Shown here piece by piece: positions 1,638-11,873 of a DNA stretch of 36,408 nucleotides. The stretch covers positions 1 through 36,408 of the forward strand of contig CAIMWD010000103.1 in assembly GCA_903845085.1 (NCBI GenBank), given 5' to 3'. Under the pieces are notes generated by a model. That model was not told the DNA's origin, did no database searches, and was given only the letters and a program-made list of their open reading frames with translations. How positions within the stretch are numbered: position 1 is the stretch's first letter; each line of letters starts with the position of its first letter. The translations under genes and the position numbers were made by a program. The DNA is from an uncultured Acidimicrobiaceae bacterium. Lineage in GTDB: Bacteria; Actinomycetota; Acidimicrobiia; Acidimicrobiales; Bog-793.

Positions 1638-2729
1638 CTATCCGTTCAGCGCGATCGCTCGAGTAATCGCTCCGCGGAGAGCATCCTCGGCCGCCGCGAG
1701 CGTAAGCGTTGCTGCTCGGCGACGGCCGCGGCGGCGTAGCTCTTCAGAGAGCGACCCGTCGAGCAGCAGCTCATGCACCACGCTCGCTACAAGATCGGGT
1801 GACTTATCCTGCAAAAGGACGGCACCATCGAGGACCGTTCCCGGTACCGCTGCGGCGGCATTGGCCACTACAAGCAGTCCGCGGCTCATCGCCTCGACCA
1901 GTGGTGCGCAAAATCCCTCGTGATCCGAGAGACAGACGAAGACGTCGGCGAGTTGGTAATAAGCAGCCAACTCAGCTGAGGAGACCGAGCCGGCAAGTGT
2001 GATGCAATCCTCAAGATGGAGATGATGTATGAGCCGCACCAAAGCAGCTCGATAGGCATTACCCATCTCACGACCCACGATATGCAACCGAGCGTTGGGA
2101 TCAAAGAGCGCCCGGTACCGCGAGAAGGCCATAATGAGATCATGCTGGGCCTTATGCGGAGCAATCTGGCCCACAAAGAGCCAGTCTGTGCCCTCTCGCT
2201 CAACGAAGCGTGCAAGGACCTCCCTATCGGGCGCCTCAATCAGATTTCCCTCAGCGATCAGTACCGAGACGACCTCGGCGTGTTGGTAACCAAGTTCTAC
2301 GAGCTCACTCGCGTTAAAGGCAGAGTCTGCGATCGCGAAGTGAACGATAGGTGCAAGCTCGGCGAGTTGACGCCGGCCGAGCCGTGTCTCCTCGCCGAGT
2401 GGAGGAAGCCAACGCTCCACAAGCTCTGCCGGTGTGATGTTGTGATAATCAAGCATCTTGTGCTGTGAATAAGCGGCAAAGATCTCTGCGGCTGGACTTC
2501 CAATTGAACATTGGTACATCACCCAGCGCCCGGAGTCGCCCTCGTCGATGAACTGTTCCAAGGGCTGGACTCGACCCTCGACACCGGGCCCTAACACCTG
2601 CGCGTAGATCGTGGAATCAAAGCCCATCTCCCTCAGGACGCGCTGGACTCCAAAGGTATGATTTGAGACCGCGTCATATTCAACGATGGAGGGGATGATC
2701 TGATCGATACGTCGTGGGCGCTCGCTCAT
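1638..2729 (-). CDS. GT4-family (GT-B) glycosyltransferase
   Basis: 363 residues. The C-terminal donor-binding half is clear: FVGQIAPHKAQHDLI (185-199) resembles the GT4 segment following the linker, RLHIVG (214-219) follows, and the E-x7-E motif is EGFCAPLVE (E271 and E279). The N-terminal acceptor half is more divergent, as usual. GT4 enzymes are retaining transferases using NDP-sugars at the cytoplasmic membrane face. The ATG start overlaps the stop of the upstream 95-residue gene as ATGA, which indicates translational coupling inside the wzm-wzt operon. The sugar and acceptor cannot be read from sequence; by context it helps build the polysaccharide exported by the neighbouring ABC transporter. 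The family call is firm, the substrate unknown. Confidence 0.88.
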   Translation of the reverse strand: MSERPRRIDQIIPSIVEYDAVSNHTFGVQRVLREMGFDSTIYAQVLGPGVEGRVQPLEQFIDEGDSGRWVMYQCSIGSPAAEIFAAYSQHKMLDYHNITPAELVERWLPPLGEETRLGRRQLAELAPIVHFAIADSAFNASELVELGYQHAEVVSVLIAEGNLIEAPDREVLARFVEREGTDWLFVGQIAPHKAQHDLIMAFSRYRALFDPNARLHIVGREMGNAYRAALVRLIHHLHLEDCITLAGSVSSAELAAYYQLADVFVCLSDHEGFCAPLVEAMSRGLLVVANAAAAVPGTVLDGAVLLQDKSPDLVASVVHELLLDGSLSEELRRRGRRRAATLTLAAAEDALRGAITRAIALNG

Positions 2730-3016: not shown

Positions 3017-4213
3017 CTACACGCCCTCCCCTGCCTCCATACGCATCGGCATGGAGAACAGTCCGGTCGATAGATCGGGGTTCATTACCTCAAAGGTGGT
3101 CCCTTGATAAGCCAACATGATGCCCTGCCCATCTCGAACGTCGATGTTCACGGTAAAGCGGCCATCAAGGAGTGGGATCGTGTCGAAGATAAAACTCACC
3201 CGATTCGGCCCTGCATCAAGGACGTCTCCGCCGGGCAATGCCTCACTGATCTGAGCCGAGACGACCTCGTTACGCTCCGAGAGCATGACGACGCCAAACC
3301 GCGCACCGGGGATCTCCTCACGCGCCGCAAGCTCAGCCGTAATCCTCAGCGGCTCTCCCGTAATCAGGTAGGGCCGCTCGCCAAAACCAGGATGGTCGAC
3401 CGTGAGACTGGTGAACTCCGCAAGGCGCTTCTCCAGCGCACTCGGCATTCCCTCGACCTCAGGCTCGGCGACCACAAGGCCTGCCGTGATGAGTGTCTCA
3501 CGGAAGGCACGTATGGCGGGTCCCGGCTCGTCTACAGCGACCACATGTCCATGGTCCATCACGATGATCTCATCGCAGAGCTGACGCAGGAGATCCGGCG
3601 CGTGCGACACCACGATGATGGTGCGTCCGTCACGCTGAAATTCTGCGACCTTGTCGAGACACTTTGCCTGAAACCGTTCGTCACCAACCGCGAGCACCTC
3701 GTCGACAAGCAGCACATCTGGCTCGACATTGACCGCCACCGCAAAACCGAGTCGCACATACATTCCCGAGGAGTAGTACTTCACCTGGTTATCGATGAAC
3801 TGCTCTAACTCTGCAAACTCGACAATTGCATCGAAACGTCGATCGATGTCGCGGCGTGAGAGGCCGAGAAGGGAGCCATTGAGATAGATATTGTCGCGAC
3901 CGGAGAGCTCGGGCTGCATCCCCGCGCCCAGCTCCAGCATCGCAGCGAGGTGCCCACGGACCACGACCTGTCCGGTGGTCGGCTGCAAGATACCCGCGAC
4001 ACATTTGAGCAGCGTCGATTTCCCGCAGCCGTTACGACCGAGGATTCCTACGGAGCCTCCCTCCGCGATCTCGAGATTGACCTCAGCGAGCGCCCAAAAG
4101 TCCTCATAGGGGACCTTGCCGGCGTGGAGAATGCGCTCCTTTAACGAGGTGTACTTCTGGTGGTAGAGCCGAAACCGTTTAGAGAGATCTTGCACCTCGA
4201 CCGCATTTGCCAT
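3017..4213 (-). CDS. wzt: polysaccharide ABC exporter ATPase with C-terminal Wzt-type domain
   Basis: 398 residues. The nucleotide-binding domain fills about 1-250: Walker A GRNGCGKST (59-67), signature YYSSGMYVRLGF (146-157) and Walker B LLVDEVLAVGD (168-178). The YSSGM signature and LAVGD ending typify the Wzt/TagH/RfbE polysaccharide exporters. Residues of about 260-390 form an extra beta-rich domain matching the position and length of the Wzt C-terminal carbohydrate-binding domain, which in E. coli O8/O9a recognises the modified non-reducing chain end. It drives export of a lipid-linked glycan across the inner membrane with the permease five bases upstream. The start is ATG, and the gene is followed closely by the 95-residue gene. 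The substrate is not identifiable; a role in teichoic-acid-like export is an alternative. Confidence 0.9.
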   Translation of the reverse strand: MANAVEVQDLSKRFRLYHQKYTSLKERILHAGKVPYEDFWALAEVNLEIAEGGSVGILGRNGCGKSTLLKCVAGILQPTTGQVVVRGHLAAMLELGAGMQPELSGRDNIYLNGSLLGLSRRDIDRRFDAIVEFAELEQFIDNQVKYYSSGMYVRLGFAVAVNVEPDVLLVDEVLAVGDERFQAKCLDKVAEFQRDGRTIIVVSHAPDLLRQLCDEIIVMDHGHVVAVDEPGPAIRAFRETLITAGLVVAEPEVEGMPSALEKRLAEFTSLTVDHPGFGERPYLITGEPLRITAELAAREEIPGARFGVVMLSERNEVVSAQISEALPGGDVLDAGPNRVSFIFDTIPLLDGRFTVNIDVRDGQGIMLAYQGTTFEVMNPDLSTGLFSMPMRMEAGEGV

Positions 4214-4218
4214 CGCGC

Positions 4219-5247
4219 TCAGAGCTCCTCGGCAAAATTGCCCTCAATACGCCCAAAGACGTAGAGAGCAAGCGCCAAGAGAACGAGAGCTCCAAAGAGC
4301 ACCCAACCGAGCATCGCGAGATAGAAGTGGTACGGGTAATTTGCAAGAACTGCGCCGGGGCAGACGCTCTGCACGCCCCTTATAACGACCGCCTTGCCGT
4401 GCTCTAGCACCACGCCACATCCCGCCGGGGCAACATTGCCGTAGATCGCCCGCTGAAAAGAGAGCACGAGTGGCGTGACTGGATCAGCCAGGAAGAGATA
4501 GCCCAGCCATTTTGCATGGTGGTACACCTTGTTGAAGCTGTAGATGATCGGCACTCCCCAGAACCAGACCGTCATTAACACCTGAATGAGGTGCTCAACA
4601 TCGCGCAGATAGACATTGATTGCAGAGAGCGCGATGGCGAGCGCCGTGGTCAAAATCACGAGATCGACAACAGCGAAGGGGATCAGCGGGAGATAGCTCC
4701 AATCGGGCGCGTAACGAAAGCCGAGGAGGAAGATCACGAGCACGATCAGCTGAAAACCGAGAAAGACCAGCGAAGTGCCCACCTGCGAGATGGCAAGGAT
4801 CTCTCGGGGGAAGGAGACCTTTTTCACGATTCCTGCATTTGCAACGACGGAGTTGGCCGAGGTGATCAGCGAGACGCTGAAAAAGTTCCAGACCAGCAGA
4901 CCACTAAAAAGGTAGATCGCGAACTGCGGAATTCCGCTCTTGAGAAAATAAGTGAAGACGAGCCAATAGACCACCAGCACGACCGCTGGATTGAGCATCG
5001 ACCAGAAAAAGCCAAGCACACTCCCCTTGTACTTAACCTTGAGCTCTTTGCGCACGAGAAAGAGAAGAAGTTCACGAGAGCGCCAAATTTCGCGCAGGCG
5101 AGGTCGTAGACGTACCCGCGCCGAGACCACCCGCGCGCTGTGGTCCCGATGGCGAACGACGGAACCCATCGCTGCATCATCGGCGCGCGAGAGGGCGCTC
5201 GCCGATCGCACCTCGCCAGTCTCACTGGCATTACTCACGGTGCTCAT
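4219..5247 (-). CDS. wzm: polysaccharide ABC exporter permease (ABC-2 type)
   Basis: 342 residues. A hydrophilic N-terminus of about 60 residues leads into LLLFLVRKELKVKYKGSVLG, the cytoplasmic amphipathic segment typical of Wzm/TagG permeases. About six transmembrane helices follow, for example the stretches near VVLVVYWLVFTYFL and LVFLGFQLIVLVIFLLGF. The protein is about 70-80 residues longer than E. coli Wzm, mainly because of the N-terminus and a Cys-containing periplasmic loop near the C-terminus (CGVVLEHGKAVVIRGVQSVC). It pairs with the ATPase 5 bases downstream and is the first gene of the operon. Its ATG faces the divergent coiled-coil/glycosyltransferase operon across 151 bases. An AAGGGG sequence about 10 bases upstream may serve as ribosome binding site. 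Confidence 0.9.
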   Translation of the reverse strand: MSTVSNASETGEVRSASALSRADDAAMGSVVRHRDHSARVVSARVRLRPRLREIWRSRELLLFLVRKELKVKYKGSVLGFFWSMLNPAVVLVVYWLVFTYFLKSGIPQFAIYLFSGLLVWNFFSVSLITSANSVVANAGIVKKVSFPREILAISQVGTSLVFLGFQLIVLVIFLLGFRYAPDWSYLPLIPFAVVDLVILTTALAIALSAINVYLRDVEHLIQVLMTVWFWGVPIIYSFNKVYHHAKWLGYLFLADPVTPLVLSFQRAIYGNVAPAGCGVVLEHGKAVVIRGVQSVCPGAVLANYPYHFYLAMLGWVLFGALVLLALALYVFGRIEGNFAEEL

Positions 5248-5363: not shown

Positions 5364-5414
5364 ATGACGAACGGGAGCATCGAACCTCGGAGGATGGCGT
5401 GCCAGAGCGAGTAA
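5364..5414 (+). other. possible 16-residue leader ORF overlapping the coiled-coil gene start
   Basis: An ATG preceded by AAAGGTAGGT opens a 16-codon frame that stops (TAA) 13 bases inside the next gene, in another frame. Its translation would pass over the ribosome binding site of the coiled-coil gene, so it could couple or attenuate that gene. Frames this short are common by chance, so this is only a candidate. Confidence 0.15.
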
Positions 5415-5725
5415 AGCGACACCTACTTCGGCGTGCGCGCACCGCAGCATCACTGCCGGGTCGGGTCGTTGCGACAGAGGATCGTACCGATGCTATTGAG
5501 GCCCATGTCGTCGCCAAGATCGATGAGATGCGAGCCGAACTTGCGCAGCTGCGCATGCTGGTTGAGGCTCAACTTGAGGCCGATGCCGAGGCGACGGAGC
5601 TCATGGGGCGACTACTGCAAAGTACCGATGCCCGTATCCGTGCGCTCGAGGAGGAACCGGACTATCCCCCGGCGCGCACGCTCGGTCTCGGCGAGGTCGC
5701 GGAGACCCCCTCACTTGGTGCCTGA
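5399..5725 (+). CDS. small coiled-coil protein coupled to the tandem glycosyltransferase
   Basis: 108 residues from a GTG start with GGAGG five bases upstream. The first 24 residues are basic and amphipathic (VKRHLLRRARTAAS) and could bind membrane. Residues of about 32-83 form a predicted coiled coil; hydrophobic positions I41, M44, L48, L51, V55 follow 3-4 spacing. A short Pro-containing acidic tail follows (EEEPDYPPARTLG). There is no signal peptide and no catalytic motif. The last 8 bases overlap the GTG start of the tandem glycosyltransferase, so the two products are probably made together. Coiled-coil partners of chain-extending glycosyltransferases include the ruler region of WbdD in E. 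coli O8/O9a, which motivates a chain-length or scaffold hypothesis. Function is inferred from architecture and context; I do not recognise a family. Confidence 0.7.
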   Translation: MPERVKRHLLRRARTAASLPGRVVATEDRTDAIEAHVVAKIDEMRAELAQLRMLVEAQLEADAEATELMGRLLQSTDARIRALEEEPDYPPARTLGLGEVAETPSLGA

Positions 5726-8162
5726 TCGCCTCTCCGGAGGATGTGCGGAGGCTCCGGTCATCGTCGACCTCGCGGCGCTGCAGAGCGAGGAGACGCGGGG
5801 CCGAGGGATCGGTCGCTACGCGCTCGAATGGTGCATTGCGCTTGAACGGTATGCGCCGCATCTCGTGCAGGCCTATGAATTATCGACGCAACTGCCGCCG
5901 CCCGGCGCGCTACGCGAGCTTGCCGCGACTGGCAAGGTCCGATATCGAACCGGGACCTCGGACTCAGATGTACGGATCTTGCACCAACTTTCACCGTTTG
6001 ACCTCTCCCGATCGCTCACCGAACTCGCGCCACGATACCGATCTGGCCAGATTCGTAGCGACACCGTGTATGACCTGATTCCCGCCCACGACCTCGCGCG
6101 CGAGCTCATCGACCCGGTCGAACGCAGGCGCTACCGCGCGCGCATGGAACTCGTTCGCACAAACGATTTTCATCTTGTTCTCTCCGCGACGGTGGGGCGC
6201 GACCTTGTCGAACTCCTCGGTATCGATCCGGCCACGATTGGGTGCATCGGGGCGGCAGCGCAACCCATCTTCCAGCCAGCAGGGGACCTCGCCCAAGCCA
6301 CCGCGAAGGCGCTTGCGACGCTTGGTCACGTTGGACTCGATCGGTCCTATCTGCTCTACCCCAGCGGATCACATCCGAGAAAGAACAATGAACGACTGAT
6401 TCAGGCATTCGCTGCACTTCCCGCGATGGTGCGTGATCACTTTCAACTTGTGATCACCGGCCGATTCAACCCATCGACGGTGCATCACTTCCATCACCTC
6501 GCGGTCGAACTTGGTGTCGGTGACCAATTGATCGTGCCAGGGCACCTCGGCGATAACGACCTGCTTGCACTTGTGCAGGGAACGGCGTTACTTGTCTTCC
6601 CCTCCCTTGCCGAGGGATTCGGACTTCCCATCGTCGAGGCGCTCGCCTGCGGACGGCCCGTGATTGCCTCGAAGATTCCTGTGCATGAGGAGATCCTCCC
6701 GAACTCTGTGCTCTTTGATCCCCTTGACCGCGACGCGATTACAGAGATGATCCAAGAAAACCTCACGGACGATATCGCTGCGGCAACCCCTCACGATGCC
6801 CTTATTGATTGGAGGCAGGTCGCGGCGCGAAGCGAGGCAGCGTTCGTCGCCATGTTGCAGAGCAATCGTGTGCGACTCCTGCCCCCGCGTCACCTTCGTG
6901 CGCGACCACGCCTCGCAGTGGTCACTCCCCTGCCACCGGCGGCGACCGGCATCGCCCGATACAGCTACGAATTCTTACGTGCGCTCGTGGCAACAGAGAA
7001 GGTGGAGGTCACCGCATTCACCGATGGCCCGACCGAGGGACAGTTTGCCCCCGAGGGCGTCGAAACCTACCGCGCAGAGAGTCTCTTACCGGTTGAGCGA
7101 CTCCTCGGTCCCTTCGACCATGTTCTTTACGTGATCGGCAATAGCCATCATCACCTCGGCGCGCTCTCGCTCCTTCCGCTGCGTAGCGGAAGTGTTCTCA
7201 GTCACGACGTGCGACTCAATAACCTCTATCGGCATGCCCATGGTGACCCCGGACTCCTGCCCGGAGGGTTCGCGCGCGAGATCGCTGCGATGTACGACAA
7301 CCTATTGCCAGATGATCTTGGTAACGAGGGTTCTCTGCATCATGAGGACCTAGAGCGTTATGGCCTCTTAATGGCCCGCGACATTATCGCTACAGCCGAA
7401 CACCTCTTTGTCACCTCTTCCTCTGCGCGCGCGCTAGCAACTATCGATGCGCGCAAAGACGATGCCGGCAAGATCTCGATCCTCCCCTTTGCCATGGCGG
7501 AGCCAGCAGAGGAGTTGGACTTTGTAGAGGATCAACCTTCCATCGCACCAGCACTCTCGCGGCTTGGTGACGCACGAGTCGGTCTTGGTCCTCCCGACGA
7601 TGGGCGGCAATTTATCTCCCACTTTGGACTTGTAGATCCGATCAAAGCGCCGCACCTGCTCCTCTCTGCACTGGCCGCAACAGACAACCTCTCGCTTGCC
7701 TTTGTTGGTCCGATCTCTAGTTCGCTCGCAGAGGAGCTCGTGACGCTCGCAGAGGAGCTGGGAATTTGTGATCGGATCTGCTTCACCGGTCCGCTTCCTG
7801 CCGACCTCTACCGTGAATGGCTTGCCCGCACACTGGTCGCGGTTCAGCTACGGATCGCCTCCAATGGAGAGGCAAGCGCAGCCGTCGGCGAGTGCCTGGC
7901 CAGTGGTGTCACCACCATCGTCTCCGACCAAGGTTGGGCGAGCGAACTTCCAAAAGAGGTAGTGCTTCATCTGCCACCTCACGTTGAGTCGGCAGAGCTC
8001 GCAAACGCGATAACGCACCTCGTCACTAACGACGAAGAGCGACGCGCTCGAGGTCTGGCTGCGCGACAGTTTGCGCAGCGCAACAGTTTTTCACAGAGCG
8101 CGCGAGCACTACTTCTGGAGCTCGCCAACACAGCACTTCATCCCACCGGCGTAATGAGCTAA
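5718..8162 (+). CDS. tandem-domain glycosyltransferase (two GT4-like GT-B modules)
   Basis: 814 residues from a GTG overlapping the upstream stop. The frame stays open upstream to 5433, but that part is the out-of-frame shadow of the coiled-coil gene, and GGAG lies 13 bases before the chosen start. Module 1 (about 12-385) has a GT4 acceptor half, YPSGSHPRKNNERLI (214-228) and the E-x7-E motif EGFGLPIVE (E299, E307). Module 2 (about 397-810) begins RPRLAVVTPLPPAATGIARY and carries SNGEASAAVGECLASG (715-730), a variant in which the first Glu is shifted by one; related GETSAAV-type motifs occur in WbdA-like polymerases. Such two-domain enzymes extend repeat-unit glycans by alternating linkages. 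It presumably supplies the chain exported by the divergent Wzm/Wzt pair. The gene ends in a 4-base stop overlap with the convergent gene. Sugar specificity is unknown. Confidence 0.88.
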   Translation: MPDRLSGGCAEAPVIVDLAALQSEETRGRGIGRYALEWCIALERYAPHLVQAYELSTQLPPPGALRELAATGKVRYRTGTSDSDVRILHQLSPFDLSRSLTELAPRYRSGQIRSDTVYDLIPAHDLARELIDPVERRRYRARMELVRTNDFHLVLSATVGRDLVELLGIDPATIGCIGAAAQPIFQPAGDLAQATAKALATLGHVGLDRSYLLYPSGSHPRKNNERLIQAFAALPAMVRDHFQLVITGRFNPSTVHHFHHLAVELGVGDQLIVPGHLGDNDLLALVQGTALLVFPSLAEGFGLPIVEALACGRPVIASKIPVHEEILPNSVLFDPLDRDAITEMIQENLTDDIAAATPHDALIDWRQVAARSEAAFVAMLQSNRVRLLPPRHLRARPRLAVVTPLPPAATGIARYSYEFLRALVATEKVEVTAFTDGPTEGQFAPEGVETYRAESLLPVERLLGPFDHVLYVIGNSHHHLGALSLLPLRSGSVLSHDVRLNNLYRHAHGDPGLLPGGFAREIAAMYDNLLPDDLGNEGSLHHEDLERYGLLMARDIIATAEHLFVTSSSARALATIDARKDDAGKISILPFAMAEPAEELDFVEDQPSIAPALSRLGDARVGLGPPDDGRQFISHFGLVDPIKAPHLLLSALAATDNLSLAFVGPISSSLAEELVTLAEELGICDRICFTGPLPADLYREWLARTLVAVQLRIASNGEASAAVGECLASGVTTIVSDQGWASELPKEVVLHLPPHVESAELANAITHLVTNDEERRARGLAARQFAQRNSFSQSARALLLELANTALHPTGVMS

Positions 8163-8923
8163 CGACTCCGTCCTACGCGACGAGCAAAGCCGCGCAGCAC
8201 GCGACGAACGGATGCTTTGGTCATGACATAGAACGAGAGCTTTCCCGTCGGCACCGCGCCAAAGGGATTACCCGGACGTGGGCCTAGATCGAGTGCGCCG
8301 AGTTCAACACGTGCATCATTTGCGCGCCGTTCACCCTGCGCGCGGCGGCGGATCTCTGCCAGAACTCGCTCGCGAAGATCTGATTCATCGGCGCGCGGCC
8401 AGGATGCATCGCCTCTGCTGGTGACCACACCCGACATGGTATCCGCCACCTTCACACGATCTGCGACGACTCCGGGAGCGCGGAGCAGCTGTCGACGATC
8501 CGCCTCGGTGGCCACCACAAGCTGGGAGGCGCTACGCCAGAGCCTCGCGGTCGCACGCCCGCCAACCCCACCGGGAATCGGAATCGGTGAGTCAAGGCGA
8601 AGCGTGACCGTGCCGTAGCGCCCGGTCGCGACACCAAGTGCCGAGAGCGTCGCCGCTCTCATGAGACGTCCGGTTCGTTCTCCGAGCGGCATCTCCGTCG
8701 CGATGCGCAAAACAAGCGCGTCATAGCGTGGGGCAAGCCGGAGAAGACGTAGCGGAAGAGCGAGCGTCGATAGATGCCCGTGGAGGTGCGCTGCGCTGCG
8801 CGCATCAGGGGAGAGAACCTCGACCTCATCACCGAGTGCCCGAAGTCGGTTGACCTCACCTGCAAGTGCGATGGCAGAATCGCCTCCAGGCGGAGGAGTC
8901 GTACCGACGACGAGTACCCTCAA
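8159..8923 (-). CDS. GT4-like protein with only the N-terminal half of a GT-B fold
   Basis: 254 residues if started at the TTG whose last two bases form part of the upstream TGA stop (TTGA); an in-frame ATG at 8983 would add 20 Arg-rich residues overlapping the upstream gene. The N-terminus LRVLVVGTTPPPGGDS opens a Rossmann-like acceptor domain typical of GT4 proteins, and LVVATEADRRQLL matches the end of that half. No donor-binding half, no G-x-K/E-x7-E motif follows; instead there is an Arg/Glu-rich helix region (150-220) and a basic tail, KASVRRVLRGFARRV. It is coupled to a complete GT4 gene upstream, so it may act as a partner subunit or be a decayed enzyme. The open, in-register frame argues for a working gene. 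Confidence 0.65.
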   Translation of the reverse strand: MRVLVVGTTPPPGGDSAIALAGEVNRLRALGDEVEVLSPDARSAAHLHGHLSTLALPLRLLRLAPRYDALVLRIATEMPLGERTGRLMRAATLSALGVATGRYGTVTLRLDSPIPIPGGVGGRATARLWRSASQLVVATEADRRQLLRAPGVVADRVKVADTMSGVVTSRGDASWPRADESDLRERVLAEIRRRAQGERRANDARVELGALDLGPRPGNPFGAVPTGKLSFYVMTKASVRRVLRGFARRVGRSR

Positions 8924-10122
8924 CGCAGTCCGCCGGCGAGCTCTGCAAGCGAGTGCTCCATACGATCGAGCACTAACGGCCAAGTGTAATTCGCAAGGAC
9001 GTAATCACGACCCCGCGCGGCAAGCGCTCGGGCGCTCTCGGGCGCCTCGGCGAGAAAATGGAGGCACTGCGCGAACTCCAGCTCATCGGAGTAGGTAAGG
9101 CCGCCACCAGATCGCTCACAGTGCCAGGTGATGACCTCACCGCGAGCATTTGCAATCACCAGAGTTCCCGCGAGCCACGCCTCCATCATCGTGCGTGAGA
9201 AGCTCTCGTTGACACTCGGCTGCACCATGGCTGCGGCAGCTGCGAAAGCGTTCGGCAGCTCCTCCGTGGACATAAATCCAAGATCGATCACTCGATCTTT
9301 GATCCCCGAGGGCACCTGCGGAGCGCCGACTCCCACCGTCACAAGATCAAAGGGAAGATCATTCCCCACCAACGAGGCTGCGTATGCAGCGAGCAACTGG
9401 CGCCATCCCTTGCCGTCTTCGCGACGACCTGCATACAGGATAAAGGGACGTCGAAGGCCATGGCGCTCCCGAAATCCCGCAGGGTCATAACTACTCGGAA
9501 CGTCCACGGCTGCGCCGACGACCGGGTGGTGCGAACTCATTCCCGGCGCGATGCGATGGCCTAGCTGGTGCTCGGGCTCGGAGAGGAACCAGACGCCAGC
9601 AGCCGCTGAGATGGTCTTCTCCACCACTTTTAGATAGGCGTAGGACTCATCATGGAGGCAGGGCATGACGATGGTGCGCTCTGGCGCTACAGCTGCACCG
9701 TAGATCGTGGACCAAAAGAGATATGGCGAGAGCACGATTGCGTCAAAGCGTTCCGCGTTTGCCACCAGATGAAGGTAGAGATCTGGAACGCGAAGACGCC
9801 CATTCACCCATGCAATCTCCTCGGATTCGCTCAACCTCTCGGAGCGCTGCACCCGACGTTCGAGCTCGCCGGCAAGCACTCGAGAGATCGCGGAGACCGT
9901 CGGGAAACGATGGATCACGATTCCGTGGTCTTGTGTCTCGCCTGGGGGGAACTCGTTCTCCCAGGTAAAATGTGACCGCGCACAGGTCGTGAGCAGTTCA
10001 ACCGTGTGGCCACGCGCCGCAAGACCCCACGCCGCCTCCGCCATCACGGCCTCAGATCCACCGACCACGCCCTCGCCGTATCGCGGGGTGACAAAGGCGA
10101 TGCGGAGGGGTTGCACCTTCAC
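8920..10122 (-). CDS. GT4-family (GT-B) glycosyltransferase
   Basis: 400 residues from the GTG at 10122; a TTG one codon earlier is 8 bases from GGGGAG and equally plausible. RIAFVTPRYGEGVVGGSE (7-24) is the glycine-rich acceptor loop of GT4 enzymes. The donor half shows FILYAGRREDGKGWRQLL (227-244) and the E-x7-E motif ESFSRTMME (E306, E314). It is a cytoplasmic, membrane-associated NDP-sugar transferase by family knowledge. Its stop overlaps the start of the half-length GT-like gene, and the pair converges on the tandem glycosyltransferase, so both presumably serve the same glycan. The frame is open upstream to 10248, but that stretch lacks GT features. Donor and acceptor are unknown. Confidence 0.87.
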   Translation of the reverse strand: MKVQPLRIAFVTPRYGEGVVGGSEAVMAEAAWGLAARGHTVELLTTCARSHFTWENEFPPGETQDHGIVIHRFPTVSAISRVLAGELERRVQRSERLSESEEIAWVNGRLRVPDLYLHLVANAERFDAIVLSPYLFWSTIYGAAVAPERTIVMPCLHDESYAYLKVVEKTISAAAGVWFLSEPEHQLGHRIAPGMSSHHPVVGAAVDVPSSYDPAGFRERHGLRRPFILYAGRREDGKGWRQLLAAYAASLVGNDLPFDLVTVGVGAPQVPSGIKDRVIDLGFMSTEELPNAFAAAAAMVQPSVNESFSRTMMEAWLAGTLVIANARGEVITWHCERSGGGLTYSDELEFAQCLHFLAEAPESARALAARGRDYVLANYTWPLVLDRMEHSLAELAGGLR

Positions 10123-10322
10123 CAACTCGTCATCTCCCCGGTTCGATGCTTCTTCCTTGACGCAGCCTAGGTGAGTCACCACTTCCCAATGTGTCGCATG
10201 CAAAGGCGACGGGGGCGACAGACGCAGCAGAGGGGCATCTCCGTGCACCGAGCGACACCCGTTGCACCACTAGCCTGTCGACCTATCGGGTGTGCAATTT
10301 GCCACGTGCACGATCAAAATTA

Positions 10323-10330
10323 GGGGGGGG
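10323..10330 (+). repeat. G8 homopolymer tract before the beta-propeller gene
   Basis: Eight consecutive G lie in the 251-base region between the divergent GT4 gene and the secreted beta-propeller gene. The tract sits 4 bases before an in-frame TTG (10335) and 43 bases before the ATG (10374). It may serve as a Shine-Dalgarno region for the TTG, or be a slippage-prone site affecting promoter or start spacing. Apart from it I found no clear promoter in this gap. Confidence 0.4.
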
Positions 10331-10373
10331 AAAGTTGTTTACGCGAGGCGGCGAGAGAGCGCGAGCCCACCTG

Positions 10374-11873
10374 ATGCACCTCCGCACATGCCTCGTGCTT
10401 CTTCTCGCTTTTGCCGTCGCACTGCCGCTTTCGAGCGCTGGCACCGTTGCCGCCTCCGCACCCTTGTTCCCGCTCCCCACGTGGACTGACACTGTTGGAC
10501 CAGTGGCACTCAGCTCACCCACCGTCGCCACCATCGCAGGTACCCAAGTGGTCATGTTTGGCTCTCAAAATGGTGAACTCTATGTTGTCAACGCCGCAAC
10601 TGGCGTGCCCCTCCCCGGTTGGCCACAGCCAGTTGACATCACCCCGGGCACGCCTACCGCGGTCGAATCGACGCCAACACTGGCCTATGTGAATGGCCCA
10701 AATAGACCCCCGCTCATATTGGTTGGGGCAGGCTCTACCTATGTTCAGAAGCAGCAGGGAGGTCTCATCGCCTTCAGCATCACCGGACAGATCCGTTTTC
10801 GCTTCCATACCCTTGATATATTCAATGAGTGGAACGGTGGTGCCTCTCCCGATGGCTATTCGGAGGGAGTCTTTGCAACGCCGGTAGTTGGTGACGTCAC
10901 CGGATCTGGACAGAAAGACATTGTCTTTGGCTCGTGGGATCACCGCCTCTACGCGCTGACCCCCTCGGGCAGACTTGTACCCGGTTTTCCGATCGATACT
11001 CAGGACACCATCTGGTCATCTGCCGCTCTGGCCCACGTACGTGGAACCCGCCATCAGGTGGACATATTCGTCGGCGGCGATGCATCGGGGCTTAATCACT
11101 GCCACGGAGGGTTCATCTACGACATCTCCTATCGGAACCACACACCGGTGATCGAATGGCAACACTGTGAAAATCAGACCATCTGGTCGAGTCCTGCCGT
11201 GGGCACGCTGACGTCAGGAAACCGCCTCGATGTCGTCGTGGGTACGGGATTTGGCGAAACTCCTCCCTACAAGAGCGGCTCCTACCGACTTTTTGCCTTC
11301 CGCGCCGAAAGTGGCAGACCTCTCCCTGGCTGGCCAGTCAAGACAACTGGCCCTACCTTTGGATCGCCGGCGATCGCGGTACTTCCGGGTACCTCTCGTC
11401 CCGACGTAGTCGATGTCTCTTGGTGCATGAGCTGCGCGACGACGGGAGGGGGCACCTCCATCGTGCGAGCGTTTACGGGGACCGGTCATCTTCTGTGGTC
11501 GCAGAACCTCTCCGGGGAGAAGGACTTCGCCTCACCCGTGATCGCTGATCTGAATGGGAATGGACAAAATGACGTTCTCGTTGGATCGGCGGCAGGGCTC
11601 TATCCACTCAGCGGTCTCGACGGAAGCTTTCTCTTTGGTACCTCGATTACGAACACCCTGACGAGCTGTTCGATCCAAGATGCTCCAGCAATCGCCGACA
11701 TTGCAGGAACGGGTCCGGGCACGGGGTGGCGACTCTTTGTAATCTGCGGCGGCCCCCAGCAGCTCACCGCGAGTGCACGACTTCTCAGCTTTCCGTTGCC
11801 AGCAACGCCCTTACGAAACCCGCCGTGGCCAATGTGGCGAGGAAATATAGCTCATACCGGCACTGGTTCTTAG
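10374..11873 (+). CDS. secreted FG-GAP/VCBS-like beta-propeller protein
   Basis: 499 residues from the ATG. The N-terminus (HLRTCLVLLLAFAVALPL then SSAGTVAASA) is a signal peptide with cleavage near residue 28; a TTG at 10335 would only lengthen its basic region by 13 residues. The mature part is built of repeated blades with FG-GAP-like calcium-loop signatures: GDVTGSGQKDIVFGS, VGTLTSGNRLDVVVGTG and ADLNGNGQNDVLVGS. Each is followed by a strand naming content such as LYALTPSGRLVPGFP or LPGWPVK. Seven or so blades fit the length. Such proteins are exported, and many bind surfaces or ligands; no enzymatic residues are recognisable. It stands alone, divergent from the GT4 pair and convergent with clpP. 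Expression may depend on the G8 tract upstream. Function is unknown beyond the fold. Confidence 0.8.
   Translation: MHLRTCLVLLLAFAVALPLSSAGTVAASAPLFPLPTWTDTVGPVALSSPTVATIAGTQVVMFGSQNGELYVVNAATGVPLPGWPQPVDITPGTPTAVESTPTLAYVNGPNRPPLILVGAGSTYVQKQQGGLIAFSITGQIRFRFHTLDIFNEWNGGASPDGYSEGVFATPVVGDVTGSGQKDIVFGSWDHRLYALTPSGRLVPGFPIDTQDTIWSSAALAHVRGTRHQVDIFVGGDASGLNHCHGGFIYDISYRNHTPVIEWQHCENQTIWSSPAVGTLTSGNRLDVVVGTGFGETPPYKSGSYRLFAFRAESGRPLPGWPVKTTGPTFGSPAIAVLPGTSRPDVVDVSWCMSCATTGGGTSIVRAFTGTGHLLWSQNLSGEKDFASPVIADLNGNGQNDVLVGSAAGLYPLSGLDGSFLFGTSITNTLTSCSIQDAPAIADIAGTGPGTGWRLFVICGGPQQLTASARLLSFPLPATPLRNPPWPMWRGNIAHTGTGS

Follow-up and report, generated by a model that had tools for sequence, protein, structure and literature searches.

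The window, by which we mean the whole stretch of 36,408 bp that was analyzed, corresponds to contig 103 in the 1.75 Mb genome of an uncultured Acidimicrobiaceae bacterium. Genes encoding a SpoIID-like protein, a GT4 glycosyltransferase (GTa), a small basic protein (o95) and the two components of a glycan exporter, the ATPase Wzt and the permease Wzm, lie on the minus strand, and from these diverge on the plus strand a short gene for a stand-alone coiled-coil protein (CC) and a long gene for a tandem glycosyltransferase (GTT). The pair is followed by o274 and a second GT4 glycosyltransferase (GTb) on the minus strand, a gene for an FG-GAP protein on the plus strand and clpP (Table 1). The open reading frames of 108 and 814 residues proposed in the first-pass annotation were both confirmed, as was their overlap of exactly 8 bases (5718-5725) and their proximity to a Wzm/Wzt exporter, which adjoins the pair in divergent orientation. 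The FG-GAP/PQQ-like beta-propeller protein beside clpP (10191-11873) is present as tandem duplicates in several relatives (L064, L082, L085 and L089 in our numbering).

Table 1. Features of the glycan-assembly locus; positions refer to the window.
Feature	Position	Strand	Basis
Shine-Dalgarno-like GGAGG, 5 nt ahead of coil-gene start	5389..5393	+	read from sequence
Stand-alone coiled-coil protein (CC), 108 aa, GTG start	5399..5725	+	ORF, family alignment, AF2 helix
CC residues 1-24, RHLLRRARTAASLPGRVV: N-terminal segment, basic and amphipathic, presumed to anchor CC at the membrane	5399..5470	+	charge, hydrophobic moment; motif kept in most of the window's clade
CC coil core, residues 27-86	5477..5656	+	AF2 helix, heptad statistics
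CC residues 58-86, ...TELMGRLL.....RI..LEE: conserved block where the coil ends, possibly used for docking	5570..5656	+	alignment; long coils in another family have a related block
CC tail, residues 87-108, low-confidence, probably disordered	5657..5722	+	AF2 pLDDT
Tandem GT-B/GT4 enzyme (GTT), 814 aa, GTG start	5718..8162	+	Pfam, AF2, Foldseek PDB
GTT N-module EX7E motif EGFGLPIVE	6612..6638	+	alignment
GTT C-module motif NGEASAAVGE	7863..7892	+	alignment
Wzm, ABC-2 permease of glycan exporter	4219..5247	-	Pfam ABC2_membrane; NCBIfam galactan_ABC_perm under its cut-off
Wzt, ATPase with weak C-terminal Wzt_C	3017..4213	-	Pfam ABC_tran; Wzt_C 21.9 bits, under cut-off
o95, basic helical protein, 95 aa	2726..3013	-	homologous to N-terminus of 342-aa methyltransferase-like protein (HMM)
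GTa, GT4 glycosyltransferase	1638..2729	-	Pfam
o274, apparent lone N-terminal half of GT-B enzyme	8159..8983	-	resemblance to N-half of complete GT in L101
GTb, GT4 glycosyltransferase	8920..10248	-	Pfam

Relative to two congeners, CC is 66-67% identical versus 51-53% for GTT, and substitutions concentrate at third codon positions. The small frame is thus a real protein, selected more strongly than the adjacent enzyme. Among 34 genomes of the same family besides the window's own, the tandem GT was found in 29, and all 29 carry the small coil ORF, apparently immediately upstream (in G013 each of the two stands at the end of its own contig, and their adjacency is inferred). The five GT-less genomes (G007, G024, G025, G031 and G033), several of them incomplete assemblies (68-93% complete), contain nothing that convincingly matches the coil (E 0.06 or worse). 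The gene order of the whole locus is kept across the family. The gene pair, which the first-pass annotation proposed to seek in other actinobacteria, was found in most genomes of the family, with counterparts in further families of the order. Within the family the small frame is retained wherever the tandem GT is, so that the conservation test by which the first-pass proposal could have been refuted did not refute it. A chance ORF was ruled out by conservation, codon-position pattern and co-occurrence.

GTT contains two Glycos_transf_1 stretches in Pfam, its AlphaFold2 (AF2) model (pLDDT 87) matches GT-B folds, and its nearest solved structures in a Foldseek PDB search are GT4 enzymes such as MshA, the longest alignment among the matches listed being with 8qoy, a capsule-synthesis multienzyme. 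The division into two GT-B modules is thereby borne out and, with at least two GT4 modules on one chain, GTT has the multi-module build of WbdA-type polymerases. The GEASAAV variant previously noted in the second module is indeed present, within NGEASAAVGE (residues 716-725); K643, G717, E718 and S720 are invariant across 28 GT homologues, and the second acid, E725, varies between E, D and N. In the alignment, judged by eye, EX7E and/or RKN catalytic residues of the N-module are lost in L062, L095, L096 and L097 (genus g3) and in L063 and L066 (g18), and the first GT module of these members is probably inactive. In a search for E. coli WbdA at the DNA level, a proteobacterial GT homologue used as query gave no E. 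coli match.

The first-pass annotation described CC as a basic amphipathic N-terminus followed by about 50 residues of heptad pattern. The former holds: residues 7-24 carry a net charge of +5 and a hydrophobic moment of 0.66, a value reached by 2.8% of shuffles. A basic stretch, RRARTAASLPGRVV, recurs at the N-terminus across much of the window's clade in a 26-member alignment. In a few members (L086, L087, L090, L063 and L066) the N-terminus is neutral or acidic, and the putative anchor is accordingly not shared by all. Judging from its basic amphipathic character, the N-terminus presumably sits on the membrane. The heptad pattern was upheld more clearly for the family than for the window copy. 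As a single chain, CC is modeled by AF2 as one helix spanning residues 3-85, with pLDDT of about 95-99 across residues 21-80 and about 66-68 from residue 91 onward. By our own simplified heptad weights, the window copy exceeds 99.3% of whole-protein shuffles, but its score is reached by 8.6% of within-window shuffles and its own heptad signal is therefore modest, while the family signal is clear, most of the 26 members being matched by 0-1.6% of shuffles. Predicted helix and family-wide heptad signal together give CC the extended coil of WbdD-type terminators. Beyond the predicted helix and the tail, the 108 residues hold no family domain above cut-off and no catalytic terminator domain; a coil devoid of capping domains, with neither methyltransferase nor kinase, is an accurate description.

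G70 and R79 are invariant in the 26 aligned sequences, and the middle of the coil varies in length. From the N-terminal LPxR to the invariant glycine, most genera keep a spacing of exactly 51 residues (ten sequences, of different genera); genus g15 has 58, through a clean seven-residue insertion of one heptad, L088 has 101 and L090 has 139; in L086 and L087 the length from the start to the glycine is 135. As read from the alignment, such a pattern would be as for a spacer whose length counts more than its sequence, and the constant value of 51 would suit a spacer or ruler and also a fixed adaptor.

In other families of the order, surveyed with single-protein searches, the slot upstream of the tandem GT is filled in two main ways: by a stand-alone coil in 15-16 genomes and by a coil-SAM methyltransferase fusion in 9-10, these classes leaving out G314, G375, G099 and G063 as well as G064 and G271, which are at contig ends. 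The C-terminal methyltransferase is found in G095 (family f4), G047, G240 and G313 (f14), G051, G280 and G376 (f18) and G091 and G162 (f58), with a possible tenth case in G147 (f30), where the domain is short and degenerate-looking. Stand-alone coils occur in seven f16 genomes (up to 288 aa), four f20 genomes (99-120 aa), three f18 genomes (G170, G315 and G331; about 73-93 aa), G289 (f45) and perhaps G046 (f13). In G134 and G181 the order, classified by eye, is an FkbM-type methyltransferase, then coil, then basic tail. No coil was found before the tandem GT in at least two f16 genomes, G261 (L188) and G194 (L189), in which its place is taken by a gene that we read as PAC2-like. Among more distant GT homologues, the slot holds a coil plus methyltransferase in Nostoc, a coil plus FkbM-type methyltransferase in Ruminococcus, and a methyltransferase, coil and basic tail in Paraburkholderia, Marinobacterium and Pseudomonas. 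Methyltransferase domains were confirmed by Pfam in representative slot proteins. Several long coils are built of near-perfect tandem repeats, namely 26-residue units in L073 (288 aa), AREVATSARDEA-like units in L210 (270 aa) and LEQKIEQLSQ-like units in L138 from Nostoc, which suggests fast length change through repeat number.

Whether these are versions of one coil was addressed with an HMM built from five fusion proteins trimmed to their coils, methyltransferase removed, and searched against 19,848 ORFs. Its best non-fused matches were the methyltransferase-less f18 coils L197 (E 3.2e-12) and L211 (E 1.4e-7), followed by the window-family coil L063 (E 3.8e-6), and the weaker matches after it were likewise genes of the same slot. 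The same f18 coil thus exists with and without a methyltransferase, and domain loss or gain has taken place within that family. An HMM of the window-family CC matched the f16 coils L209, L073 and L187 (E 1.3e-6 to 4.7e-4), which share its end block, and gave nothing significant with the fused coil-methyltransferase proteins (E 0.3 or worse), that link being significant only in the reverse search. Coils attract coils and such matches may be spurious, so common descent is not rested on sequence evidence alone; from position together with this weaker evidence, the window-family and fused coils likely share descent. Likeness of the coil to PDB proteins by sequence was set aside because coil matches are unspecific, and a PDB sequence search with the fused methyltransferase L065, tried as a link to WbdD, gave no significant match. 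The proposal of a WbdD-like coil minus its capping domains is right as anatomy, since the same slot holds a coil with methyltransferase in relatives and f18 has both forms, and the comparison with WbdD finds support as one of gene position and of evolutionary relationship.

Like the WbdD-WbdA system of E. coli O8/O9a (Klebsiella O5/O3), the locus places a coil protein and a putative multi-module GT polymerase beside a Wzm/Wzt exporter, a likeness of layout; sequence homology to WbdD was not found. E. coli WbdD brings WbdA to the membrane through its own non-catalytic C-terminal region (PMC3482155). CC similarly combines a coil with a putative membrane-binding amphipathic segment, but it lacks the methyltransferase and kinase, its core coil is only about 50-60 residues long, and its putative anchor is N-terminal whereas that of E. 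coli WbdD is C-terminal, so that the orientation is reversed. Having no catalytic domain, CC is not a WbdD-type terminator; it holds the position of one and, by analogy, plausibly works like the non-catalytic half of WbdD. Nine fused proteins from other families of the order and from Nostoc (L065, L069, L100, L101, L138, L191, L195, L200 and L216) share with CC the slot, a basic N-terminus, a coil and a homologous tandem GT downstream, and differ from it by their C-terminal methyltransferase. Coiled-coil chain-length machinery with a modular distribution of GT and terminator is known from Klebsiella WbbB (O12), ORF6-O7 and ORF7-O4 (PMC11231755), each with a terminator domain, which CC does not have. 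In characterized rulers the terminator is carried on the coil protein, at the far end of the coil, and known systems may also divide polymerase and terminator among several proteins (PMC11231755). In Proteobacteria, L105, L112 and L113 are stand-alone anchor proteins of 116-127 aa that, like CC, are small, non-catalytic and upstream of a tandem GT; unlike CC they are coil-less and, by eye, resemble the C-terminal anchor or tail of methyltransferase-coil proteins.

With the terminator removed, the recruiting and spacing roles remain, and we therefore favor, with a probability of roughly 55%, the view that CC is the non-catalytic half of a WbdD-type partner, an oligomeric membrane adaptor that recruits and spaces the tandem GT polymerase. 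CC would form a helical, probably oligomeric rod with its basic amphipathic N-terminus on the inner membrane face, and its distal block (TEL.GRLL.....RL..LE) may dock the tandem GT4 polymerase or another member of the complex. The rod could in this way keep several polymerase copies in a set position and at a set spacing close to Wzm/Wzt. In this lineage CC is without the usual capping methyltransferase. Of the stripped-down length-control or membrane-tether device suggested by the first-pass annotation, the anatomy stands; length measuring is not supported yet and no terminator was found. Since known rulers have a terminator at their distal end and none was found here, a chain-length ruler is unproven.

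A true ruler with its terminator in trans, in which the coil would set the distance between polymerase and capping enzyme and coil length thereby polymer length, is possible but clearly less probable. The nearly fixed coil length, shifting by +7 or in large steps, would suit it, as would the separation of polymerase and terminator known elsewhere, even if known terminators lie on the coil protein itself (PMC11231755). The GT tree cleanly splits the window's clade from a sister clade, in which a separate protein of 342 aa, methyltransferase-like in one domain (1.2e-5 at best with Pfam Methyltransf_23, under the curated cut-off), lies between Wzt and GTa and could serve as such an enzyme. The weak Wzt_C domain kept on Wzt points the same way, Wzt_C-type domains being readers of caps in other systems. 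On the other hand, nothing in the window genome matches the 342-aa protein, nothing in the family genomes sampled matches the L100-type fused methyltransferase, and no capping enzyme was found at this locus in the window's genus. Moreover, three family genomes with neither coil nor tandem GT (G007, G024 and G025) have the 342-aa protein as well, and we therefore do not call it the terminator of the coil. At a probability of 41% and an E of 2.7e-4 in a profile comparison, it shares a fold class with the fused methyltransferases, and direct descent is not claimed.

In the window's clade only o95 lies between Wzt and GTa. An o95 HMM matches the N-terminus of the 342-aa proteins (E 1.8e-7 to 1.3e-5), so that o95 appears as a second protein of the locus without its catalytic domain (window; L062, L071, L093, L094, L095 and L097). 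The o274 protein, which is conserved across the family and has no Pfam match, looks like the N-terminal half of a GT-B enzyme standing alone; across 100 aa it shares 36% identity with the corresponding half of a complete homologous GT found in L101. As two more small proteins that lack an intact catalytic domain, o95 and o274 would, in a wholly syntenic locus, be consistent with a coil that acts on another of its members (Wzm/Wzt, GTa, GTb, o95 or o274), perhaps by scaffolding assembly in general, but the tandem GT is the constant neighbor of the coil across families and phyla and we consider such a role unlikely. Comparably doubtful is a ruler that needs no terminator, in which coil length alone would decide how long the exported glycan becomes, and individual lineages would tune it with added heptads (51, 58, 101 and 139 residues, with coils of up to 288 aa). 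That the coil is a remnant of little function left after methyltransferase loss would account for the fused methyltransferase of relatives and for the fused and methyltransferase-less forms within f18, but is very improbable given its strong conservation, its retention with the GT in 29 of 29 genomes, the fixed 51-residue spacing and the conserved end block.

In summary, the membrane adaptor remains the reading that we prefer for a conserved glycan-assembly locus situated beside clpP in uncultured Acidimicrobiales, a locus for which the literature searched gave no description. For ABC-exported glycans, the ruler model rests on a coil that bears at its tip the enzyme adding the cap. Here, a coil is retained under strong selection in dozens of species with no cap enzyme on the protein, and relatives carry the fusion. 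This amounts to a natural experiment that separates the two functions and asks whether the coil is mainly a polymerase tether or may control length alone.
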